Shown in pieces: positions 11,028 to 15,093 of a stretch of DNA of 33,669 nt. Made by a program: the position numbers and the translations under genes. Source of the stretch: Tepidibacillus decaturensis (GTDB lineage: Bacteria > Bacillota > Bacilli > Tepidibacillales > Tepidibacillaceae); assembly GCF_001561915.1 (NCBI RefSeq), contig NZ_LSKU01000001.1:934314-967982 (forward strand), read 5' to 3'. The notes beneath the pieces were generated by a model. The model was not told where the DNA came from, did not search any database, and saw only the letters and a list, made by a program, of their open reading frames with translations. How positions within the stretch are numbered: the first letter of the stretch is position 1; each line of letters begins with the position of its first letter.

Positions 11028-11914
11028 ATGGAACCAGCTGAACAGCAAAGTTATGGTAAGTTGGAATGGTTTTTTTATATTGTGATCTTACCAGTCTTGT
11101 TCATTGCTATCTTAACTGGCATTTTACTGTGGGCTTTAGATTACGATGTAAAAGAAAAAATTTATAGTGCTTTAAATCGAGTACCATATATAGAAAAATT
11201 AGTCCCTAGTGAATCAAACATACCAACACAGGATCAAAAAGTGAATAATAAGAATCCTGAACTTGAAACACAAATCAAGGAATTAAAGGCATCACTATCC
11301 GAAAAAAATAACTCCATACAACAATTAGAACAAAGTATTACAACTAAAGACGTTGAAATACAGAAGTTGAATCGACAAATTGTTGATCTAACAAAGCAGG
11401 TAGATGAAAAAAATTTTCTGATCAATCTAGGGAACAAGATATTGCTAATTTAGCAAAAATCTATACAAATATGAGTCCGAAGAGTGCAGCGAATATTATT
11501 TCAAATCTAAGTAATAGTGAAGCGGTTTTAATTCTAGCACAAATGAATTTAGATGCAAAAAGTCAAATCTTAGAGAAGATGAATCCAGATAAAGCAGCTG
11601 ATCTATCTATTCTTTTAAAAGATCAGGCTTATTCAAAAGACTTAGATATCCTTGCTTTACAAGAGAGGGTGAATCAATTAACTCAAGAACTTGATCAATT
11701 GAAAAAGGATCAAGTCGAATATCAACAGCTTGCATCTACCCTTTCGAACATGAGTCCAGACAAAGCGGCTCAGACAATAATTTCTATTTCTAATCAAAAT
11801 TCAAATAAAGCTAGAGCAATTCTCAGTGTTATGGATCCTTTATCAAGGTCAAAAATCTTAAATGAAATGGAACCAAATATTGCGGCAAAATTATCTATTG
11901 GTTTAGTAAATTAA
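11028..11914 (+). CDS. MotE/YlxF-like flagellar protein with MgtE_N repeats, frame interrupted once
   Basis: This is the membrane-anchored coiled-coil gene found between fliJ and fliK in Firmicutes (YlxF in B. subtilis; MotE-related, where known family members act as stator chaperones). It starts at ATG after AAAGGGG. One membrane segment lies at about 15-40 (IVILPVLFIAILTGILLWAL), followed by a coiled coil (KELKASLSEKNNSIQQLEQS). The frame stops at about 11453 as read; one extra A in the A7 run 11407-11413 gives DEKKFSDQSREQDIANLAKI and joins the C-terminal half. That half holds two related MgtE_N-like helical repeats (NMSPKSAANIISNLSN and NMSPDKAAQTIISISN, each followed by an ILxxMxPxxAAxLS segment). 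Repaired length is 295 residues. Function in this organism is inferred. Confidence 0.8.
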
Positions 11915-13341: not shown

Positions 13342-13803
13342 TTGAACGTAACTGAGAGCACTTCAACGGCAAGTAATGTAAATTCTCAGAGTGCCCTTTC
13401 AGAACAAAGTATTTTAGGAAAAGACGACTTTCTTAAGATATTTGTTACCCAGCTAAAAAATCAAGATCCTTTACAGCCATTGCAAGATCGTGAATTCATT
13501 GCACAAATGGCACAATTTAGCACATTAGAACAAATCGCGAATCTGAATAAAACAACAGAGAAAGTTCTTGAGATACAGACTACAATGGCTCAAGAATTTG
13601 CTAATCTTAAGGATCCGTCGCTTAATAACTATCAATTGATTGCGAGTTATTCTAATTTGATTGGAAAGAAAGGGTTTTGGTTAGACCAAAATGGAAACGA
13701 GACCTTTGGCTCAATACAAAGTATTCTTTTTAAGGAAAACCAGCATTATGTCAATATTGATGGACAAGAATTATTGATCTCTGACTTAGTCAAAATAGAA
13801 TAG
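13342..13803 (+). CDS. flgD: Flagellar hook capping protein FlgD
   Basis: FlgD is the scaffold cap for hook polymerisation. It starts at TTG 13342 after AAGGGGGAAG. It has 153 residues, the short Bacillus form without the long C-terminal Ig-like domains of enteric FlgD. Conserved region: LGKDDFLKIFVTQLKNQDPL, QPLQDREFIAQMAQFSTLEQ. The remainder (YSNLIGKKGFWLDQNGNETFG) is a small beta-rich tail. It forms part of the hook module fliK-flgD-(flagellar operon protein)-flgE. Confidence 0.95.
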   Translation: MNVTESTSTASNVNSQSALSEQSILGKDDFLKIFVTQLKNQDPLQPLQDREFIAQMAQFSTLEQIANLNKTTEKVLEIQTTMAQEFANLKDPSLNNYQLIASYSNLIGKKGFWLDQNGNETFGSIQSILFKENQHYVNIDGQELLISDLVKIE

Positions 13804-13813
13804 GAGGGGTGAA

Positions 13814-14200
13814 ATGAGTCAATCTTTTAACATTGGACAATCCTATTTTCCTAAATATCCCCTTCAAACAACAAAAACGGTATCAAAAAAGCATAATATC
13901 ACAAATTTTAATACCATTCTGAGTGATAAACTAGATCAAGCTAACCAAGGTGTAAAATTTAGTGCGCATGCGCAACAAAGACTGACAAGCAGAGGGATAC
14001 AATTAGATATAAAATCTATCGATCAACTAAATGAAGCGGTTCAAAAAGCAGCGCAAAAGGGAGCAAAAGATTCATTAATTCTTTTACAAGACCTAGCCTT
14101 TATAGTAAATATCCCTAATCGTGTTGTAGTGACAACGATTGATCAGACTTCAATGAAGGAGCATATTTTTACGAATATTGATAGTGCAATTATTTTATAA
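13814..14200 (+). CDS. Flagellar operon protein of the TIGR02530 type, function unknown
   Basis: A 128-residue soluble protein of the family commonly annotated as flagellar operon protein and found between flgD and flgE in Firmicutes. The core signature is visible: VKFSAHAQQRLTSRGIQLD, followed by LNEAVQKAAQKGAKDSLILL, LAFIVNIPNRVVVTTIDQ, and the C-terminal IFTNIDSAIIL. There is no signal peptide or membrane segment. The start ATG follows GAGGGGTG. Its biochemical role is not established to my knowledge; a hook-assembly or chaperone-like role is only inferred from position. A GC-rich structured stretch begins directly after its stop codon. Confidence 0.88.
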   Translation: MSQSFNIGQSYFPKYPLQTTKTVSKKHNITNFNTILSDKLDQANQGVKFSAHAQQRLTSRGIQLDIKSIDQLNEAVQKAAQKGAKDSLILLQDLAFIVNIPNRVVVTTIDQTSMKEHIFTNIDSAIIL

Positions 14201-14254
14201 GGGCTGGACCCATAGTGGGAGGCCTTCACGCCGTTGAAAGATAGATACGGTGAA
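14201..14254 (+). promoter_or_regulatory. Tandem RNA hairpins directly upstream of flgE
   Basis: Two hairpins fill the gap. Hairpin 1: GGCT (14202-14205) pairs with GGCC (14221-14224, one G-U), enclosing CCCA (14209-14212) paired with TGGG (14216-14219). Hairpin 2: TTCA (14225-14228) pairs with TGAA (14251-14254), then after a CG bulge CCGT (14231-14234) pairs with ACGG (14247-14250). By eye 30 of 54 bases are G or C, far above neighbouring DNA. Hairpin 2 ends 2 bases before the flgE ribosome binding site AAAGGAGG (14257-14264). It could be a 5' stabiliser, processing site or translation enhancer for the hook mRNA. The pairing is seen; the role is inferred. No known riboswitch core is recognised. 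Confidence 0.55.
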
Positions 14255-14271
14255 CTAAAGGAGGAAAAAGA

Positions 14272-15093
14272 ATGTTACGAGCATTATACTCAGGTATTTC
14301 AGGAATGAGAGGATTTCAGACGAAACTAGATGTAATTGGAAATAATATCGCGAACGTTAACACACCAGGTTTTAAGGCTGGAAGAGTATTATTCCAAGAT
14401 ATTTTAAGTCAGAAAATGTCTGGTATTACTGCACCTGAATTAGGTGTAAGGGGTGGTGTAAATCCTAAACAAGTTGGTTTGGGAGCAAGTATTTCAGCAA
14501 TTGATACCATTCATACACAGGGTAGTTTTATGACAACAAACGTACCAACTGATTTAGCAATTGATGGAGACGGTTTTTTTGCGGTTAAACAAAATGGAGA
14601 TGACGAAAATATTTATTTAACTCGGGCTGGAAATTTTACAAAGGATGCTGCTGGTAATCTTGTTACATCTCAAGGATATTTGGTTTTGGGTGAAGGTGGG
14701 GATCCAATTAGCTTAGAAGGTGTTCAGGCATTTGAGATTGGTTCTAATGGTGGTATCTATGTGACAAATGCTGATGGTACGATCGAACCGGATCCAATTG
14801 CTACAATAGGTTTAGTTAAGGTACAAAATCCAGCTGGTTTGGAAAAGGTTGGGAATACGATGTATAAAATGACATTAAATGCTAACCCTGATGGAGAAAT
14901 AGAGGTGATTACTCCACAAGATCCAGATCAGGGAACGGGAAGTATTGTTTCTGGACAACTTGAAATGTCTAATGTCGACTTGACCTCTGAATTCACTGAA
15001 ATGATAGTTGCTCAGAGGGGTTTTCAGGCAAACTCAAGAATTATTACAACTTCTGATGAAATCTTACAGGAATTAGTTAATTTAAAGCGTTAG
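14272..15093 (+). CDS. flgE: Flagellar hook protein FlgE (FlgG-like short form)
   Basis: This is the hook filament subunit as annotated in Bacillus (formerly called FlgG there), exported by the type III system. It has 273 residues versus about 264 in B. subtilis; enteric hook proteins are longer. The start follows AAAGGAGG with 7 bases of spacing. The N-terminal motif (LYSGISGMRGFQTKLDVIGN, NIANVNTPGFK) and the C-terminal motif (LEMSNVDLTSEFTEMIVAQR, GFQANSRIITTSDEILQELV) are near-identical to the family. The middle GDGFFAVKQ and LTRAGNFTKDAAGNLV segments are hook/rod typical. A distal-rod role cannot be fully excluded by sequence, but gene position after flgD supports the hook. Strong RNA structures flank the gene on both sides, unique in this operon. 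Confidence 0.92.
   Translation: MLRALYSGISGMRGFQTKLDVIGNNIANVNTPGFKAGRVLFQDILSQKMSGITAPELGVRGGVNPKQVGLGASISAIDTIHTQGSFMTTNVPTDLAIDGDGFFAVKQNGDDENIYLTRAGNFTKDAAGNLVTSQGYLVLGEGGDPISLEGVQAFEIGSNGGIYVTNADGTIEPDPIATIGLVKVQNPAGLEKVGNTMYKMTLNANPDGEIEVITPQDPDQGTGSIVSGQLEMSNVDLTSEFTEMIVAQRGFQANSRIITTSDEILQELVNLKR

Follow-up and report, generated by a model that had tools for sequence, protein, structure and literature searches.

The window analysed here is a stretch of 33,669 nucleotides of Tepidibacillus decaturensis DNA (NCBI RefSeq assembly GCF_001561915.1, contig NZ_LSKU01000001.1) that carries a flagellar operon. A row of three tRNA genes lies upstream of the operon (1677-1990), and a MgtE_N-domain protein, MotE-like, is encoded within it before fliK (11471-11914). 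As listed in Table 1, a 71-nt gap (14201-14271) separates the stop of a 128-aa gene from the ATG of the hook gene flgE. The original prediction had named flgD as the upstream neighbour of this gap; the gene directly 5' of it turned out to be a TIGR02530/PF12611 gene, and flgD lies one gene earlier. The same prediction had described two GC-rich hairpins filling the gap. RNAfold confirmed two adjacent hairpins, and 30 of the 54 bases of 14201-14254 are G or C, although the predicted borders were off by 2-4 nt. The Shine-Dalgarno sequence AAAGGAGG was unpaired in this fold and lay outside both hairpins, so that the ribosome binding site is left open, as had been proposed.

Table 1. Features of the flgD-flgE region of the window, with positions counted from its first letter.
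Feature	Position	Strand	Evidence
flgD, gene preceding the TIGR02530 gene	13342-13803		
TIGR02530/PF12611 flagellar operon protein, candidate RNA-binding partner; core 44-128	13814..14200	+	Profile matches, predicted fold, co-occurrence
Hairpin 1: stem AGGGCU/GGCCUU, 3x1 internal loop, inner stem CCCA/UGGG	14200..14226	+	RNAfold; covarying pairs in relatives
GGA of hairpin 1 internal loop, facing A14220	14206..14208	+	GG 87/87; third base A 75, C 11, U 1
Base facing GGA in hairpin 1 internal loop	14220	+	A 69, G 18 (n=87)
Hairpin 2: 6-bp stem CGCCGU/ACGGUG, 12-nt loop	14229..14252	+	RNAfold; 6/6 pairs covary
Hairpin 2 loop U-GA-AA-GA-UA-GA-U, three GA steps, 2-nt spacing	14235..14246	+	G/A positions invariant 87/87
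flgE Shine-Dalgarno, outside hairpins	14257..14264	+	Sequence; spacing in relatives
flgE hook protein, short 273-aa form	14272..15093	+	Pfam PF06429, PF22692, PF00460; closest NCBIfam equivalog named FlgG

The window sequence alone folded modestly better than chance. A 111-nt fold gave a z of -1.76 against shuffled sequences (9/200 shuffles equally good), and the 61-nt leader a z of -2.46 (3/200 equally good). Folding energies of the leaders ranged from -15.9 to -30.3 kcal/mol, values of stable stems. The own genome contained a single copy of the two-hairpin element, which excluded a mobile or repeated element there.

The gap regions of 25 relatives were retrieved via the neighbouring protein and then read by eye. 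In each of the 26 genomes read at the outset, two hairpins with compensatory changes followed the same upstream gene, and both were present in 79 of the 80 named loci. The relatives share a common design, in which GGCU-GG[A/C]-CC...GG-A-GGCC is followed by a second stem with a 12-nt loop of the form N-GA-NN-GA-NN-GA-N, then by the Shine-Dalgarno sequence and flgE. The end of hairpin 2 lay a median of 31 nt from the start codon (range 16-126 nt), and the structure ended a median of about 14-16 nt from the Shine-Dalgarno sequence. At two loci (L055, L056) hairpin 1 overlaps the 3' end of the upstream gene. One locus (L186) clearly kept hairpin 2 alone and another (L213) hairpin 1 alone, which showed that the hairpins can diverge separately. 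A plain DNA search of the relatives returned almost solely Shine-Dalgarno-like matches, and its best match (L002) was not the motif but fell at the beginning of an unrelated gene.

A covariance model, R1, was built from 13 aligned relatives and a structure written down for them. In this alignment 99.4% of pairs were standard and both sides had changed in 11 of the 14 pairs; the covariation score was 0.743, compared with 0.260 for shuffled alignments and at most 0.17 when partners were slid. With 88 copies, 98.3% of pairs were standard, both sides had changed in 12/14 pairs, and the score of 0.660 (0.231 shuffled) was attained by no shuffle. A misaligned structure was rejected by the sliding controls and shuffles. 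Two further sets were not part of the R1 build, though aligning them to R1 favours the R1 structure: 79 loci retrieved by protein and not by motif (97.7% standard pairs, 11/14 pairs double-changed), and 28 copies before flgG or behind flgF (99.2% paired, 12/14 double-changed, 0/500 shuffles). That this bias is the cause of the pairing is made less likely by the sliding control and by the sequences read by hand. By structure, covariation and gene context, the two hairpins are a conserved structured RNA and a probable cis-regulatory leader. The conserved and covarying stems in relatives support the earlier proposal that the mRNA has a functional structure 5' of the hook gene.

Bases outside the stems were also conserved. 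The internal loop of hairpin 1 had GG in every copy and A or C as its third base but for one U (Table 1), and the triple GA steps of hairpin 2 were found in 71 of 79 context-found copies, compared with 2% of shuffled sequences. Such conservation of unpaired bases is what a recognition site would show. Judged from its sequence, the loop of hairpin 2 might contain two sheared G.A pairs capped by a hexaloop.

The R1 search found the motif in 170 of 399 class genomes and in 206 of 299 phylum genomes. Named motif loci include Paenibacillus, Cohnella, Brevibacillus, Aneurinibacillus, Sporomusa and Thermosyntropha; further copies came from MAGs labelled Fibrobacter, Chitinispirillaceae, Bdellovibrionaceae and Bacteroidetes, labels that may be wrong. 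flgE alone bears the motif in the own genome and in the other class members read. By hand count, about 84 of these 206 phylum genomes have at least two copies, and among about 30 second copies read, 27 stood immediately 5' of flgG, mostly following flgF at a locus separate from flgE. These flgG copies are frequent in Clostridia-like genomes and accompany the flgE copy. Every strong R1 match that was read lay before flgE or flgG, with a sole exception (G432:C5); none lay before flgB, flgC, flgD or fliK, none before enzyme or transport genes, and apart from this odd copy the matches read included no credible one before any other gene. These results bear on the reason first offered for the structure, the need for hook protein in excess. 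As a main reason it was not supported, because the motif also precedes flgG, whose distal-rod product is low-copy, and is missing from many flagellated genomes that do make hooks.

Several other matches were set aside. Weak second matches at L094, L097, L100-L105, L238 and L239 had no flagellar gene nearby and were judged chance, with L100 and L103 resembling the reverse strand of a TPP riboswitch; viral pattern matches on 14 contigs had no stems and were not recognised by R1. The exceptional G432 copy (L271, G432:C5:29791-29846) follows flgF, and its next open reading frame encodes a 338-aa protein that is not FlgG; the same genome also has motif copies before flgE and flgG. Hairpin 1 of the flgG leaders (e.g. 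L141, L146, L244) frequently has an inner stem of its own, GGACUGC...GCAGAGGCC, which most flgE leaders do not share.

No match to Rfam 15 was found for the window gap, either at the gathering score or at E up to 10, nor over the motif at 20 further loci, in line with the statement that it resembled no known motif. Flagellar motifs go unmentioned in the main texts of the 50-, 26- and 5-genome RNA discovery papers. Compared with Rfam 15 and with these main texts, the leader is a new RNA family with a new partner. Two other structured RNAs named for flagellar genes are Termite-flg (RF01729) and flg-Rhizobiales (RF01736) (Weinberg et al. 2010, PMC2864571). Reports of them are limited to termite hindgut metagenomes or Rhizobiales, and the hook leader has no Rfam match; by this test they are other motifs.

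The motif was then compared with the presence of the upstream protein family. In the phylum sample (n=299), 203 genomes had both motif and TIGR02530, 3 the motif only, 9 the protein only and 84 neither (Fisher p ~1e-59, in a test that ignores phylogeny). Two of the motif-only genomes (G563, G678) were chance matches; the third, G660, whose assembly is 84% complete, bears the motif before flgG without a TIGR02530 match. Closer inspection showed that 7 of the 9 protein-only genomes carry the motif: in G449, G536 and G605 R1 gave weaker matches at the expected location, and in the four genomes of f141 the motif was recognised by eye (L307-L310). In the other two, G587 and G611 of family f153, TIGR02530 is present and the gap holds no recognisable motif (L311, L312); these gaps contain other GC-rich hairpins, and rewired variants are possible. 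The class sample gave a similar picture, with the motif in 149 of 152 PF12611 genomes and found by a closer look in two of the three exceptions, G005 and G176. Motif-positive genomes missed by PF12611 belonged mainly to family f7, where L055 and L056 encode a divergent TIGR02530 copy; in G243 the protein was present on reading, and the remaining PF12611-negative matches in the class were weak and without flagellar genes.

Neither motif nor protein was found in 112 genomes with flagellar axial genes from 23 families, among which f7 members may hold a divergent protein. Families f3, f27, f29, f33, f37, f41 and f48 contain both states. In 15 flagellated genomes without the protein, flgE follows flgD after a gap of mostly 15-49 nt and the motif is absent. 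Since flagellated genomes lacking the protein lack the motif, the motif tracks TIGR02530 and not flgE or hooks as such. Because the TIGR02530 gene adjoins the flgE leader, a single event could add or remove the two together. However, the flgG copies are unlinked to it and still occur, bar G660, only in protein-bearing genomes (the protein is present in all of the roughly 84 genomes with at least two copies), which argues for an association beyond adjacency. The shared motif at unlinked flgG points to a factor acting in trans.

The window protein matched TIGR02530 with 108.8 bits (cut-off 83.2) and PF12611 with 44.5 (cut-off 21.1). An AlphaFold2 model from 72 sequences had a pLDDT of 80 and a confident core at residues 44-128, in the order short strand, two helices, three strands and last strand, and the model of a second TIGR02530 member showed the same fold. 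When both models were compared with known structures by VIA-align, nearly all top rows were RelE/ParE/HigB/YafQ toxins at Z 4.5-5.9, below 8; T4 RegB (Z 3.6) and the colicin E5 RNase appeared lower down for the window model. Foldseek gave nothing significant for either model (E about 0.3 or more). With these Z and E values the match may mean a common arrangement only. A RelE-like fold of the core, the beta-alpha-alpha-beta-beta-beta fold of that superfamily, is nevertheless likely, though not proven, because the two models agree and 54 of the 72 TIGR02530 members have weak DUF4258 similarity. Among the residues that never or hardly ever change are H52, R56, R60 and K82, which we infer to be apt for RNA contact. 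A sequence search of solved structures with the TIGR02530 protein returned chance matches only, PADLOC left the family unmatched, and among the papers searched we found none naming TIGR02530, the few matches for its other names appearing not to study the family. FlgV (PMC10802407) was rejected as a relative of TIGR02530 because it has two transmembrane segments and belongs to another family.

Taken with the genome comparisons, the motif and TIGR02530 probably work as a pair that controls the making of hook and rod protein. Our favoured explanation, which we think has a good chance of being right, is that the hairpins are a cis-regulatory leader bound by the TIGR02530 protein and controlling flgE and flgG expression. 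The tandem hairpins would be a protein-recognition site on the mRNAs of flagellar rod and hook genes, with the GGA of the internal loop and the triple-GA loop as contacts. Binding just 5' of the Shine-Dalgarno sequence would tune translation initiation of flgE, as expected from the hairpin end lying about 14-16 nt from it, or else local mRNA cleavage or decay; it could block initiation, help initiation or guide cleavage. The spacing from hairpin end to Shine-Dalgarno and start is close to the space a 30S subunit needs. At the same time, under strict occlusion one would not expect the spacing between hairpin 2 and the start codon to vary over 16-126 nt. Translational or feedback control seems to us somewhat more likely than cleavage, which is a guess. 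Control would act in cis on the flgE leader, through the gene translated immediately before it, and in trans on the flgG leader; synthesis of rod and hook protein would thereby be coupled to assembly, much as it is for flagellin by FliW-CsrA. The original prediction had left a ligand-sensing or protein-binding role open, and protein binding is now favoured by the co-occurrence with one protein family and by the motif at unlinked flgG; overall, the earlier interpretation was partly supported.

The hairpins might also work without a dedicated protein, as an RNase processing site or a barrier at the 5' end by which the flgE (and flgG) portion of a long transcript is stabilised and the ribosome binding site kept open, with TIGR02530 being a neighbour that has another job. 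The stability of the stems, their end before the Shine-Dalgarno sequence and the excess in which hook protein is required would all fit. However, such a barrier needs no invariant GG[A/C] or triple-GA unpaired bases, does not call for the absence of the motif wherever TIGR02530 is absent, and would sit oddly before flgG, whose product is not high-copy; we regard it as unlikely. Still less probable is a targeting signal that brings flgE and flgG mRNA to the flagellar export apparatus, via TIGR02530 or directly. It would account for a motif limited to the genes of two axial proteins that are exported at the rod-hook stage, and for its presence in some flagellated lineages and absence from others, as for an optional aid, yet flgB, flgC, flgD and fliK, whose products are exported at the same stage, are not among the strong matches read. 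A small-molecule riboswitch acting on rod and hook gene translation, for example one sensing a cyclic dinucleotide motility signal, is very improbable: the element is compact and covarying and has invariant unpaired bases before genes of one pathway, but no alternative Shine-Dalgarno pairing stands out (motif-Shine-Dalgarno duplex, native -11.6 vs swapped -10.9 kcal/mol, confounded by G+C), near one-to-one co-occurrence with one protein is unexpected for a metabolite sensor, and we saw none ahead of enzyme or transport genes.

Binding by TIGR02530, the favoured explanation, has a counterpart in CsrA-FliW, a known post-transcriptional control of flagellin. In hag of Bacillus subtilis, as in the scheme proposed here, the target of the protein is a structured leader with GGA triplets that lies just 5' of the ribosome binding site of a gene for a flagellar axial protein. 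The targets here are flgE and flgG, and the proposed partner is TIGR02530, not CsrA or FliW. Whereas CsrA sites present GGA in an apical loop or over the Shine-Dalgarno sequence, the hook leader has it in an internal loop and tolerates GGC, and its most conserved part, the triple-GA loop, is absent from CsrA sites. With its internal-loop GGA, tolerated GGC and other partner, the hook leader is therefore not a member of the CsrA-FliW-hag system.

Many members of the RelE/ParE/HigB superfamily bind or cut mRNA, and T4 RegB, which has a RelE-like fold, cuts GGAG in mRNA leaders. The TIGR02530 core resembles the superfamily in predicted fold and in its weak DUF4258 similarity; in contrast to these toxins, it sits at a fixed place in the flagellar operon with no toxin-antitoxin pair, and the scores are moderate. 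Its match score to RegB is low and the two sequences are unrelated. We give about even chances to the wider reading of a phylum-wide RNA-protein pair for the rod-hook stage, in which a domesticated RelE-like fold would bind or cut the tandem-hairpin leaders of flgE and flgG in a sequence-specific manner. In Gram-positive bacteria, to our knowledge, no mechanism that tunes rod and hook synthesis has been described. About two thirds of the sampled Bacillota genomes carry this structured RNA, matching an orphan protein in the same genomes; if the reading is true, TIGR02530 gains a function, and a toxin-like fold has turned into a housekeeping mRNA regulator.

Individual genomes showed further arrangements of the pair. 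In G282, a genus-mate of the motif-bearing G264, the flgD-flgE gap is 260 nt long and has neither protein nor motif (L329), perhaps through a recent joint loss of both. Two TIGR02530 paralogues are present in G661 (L305, L315), with a different GC-rich hairpin behind L305, and in G591 (L306, L314), where each paralogue has its own motif copy behind it.
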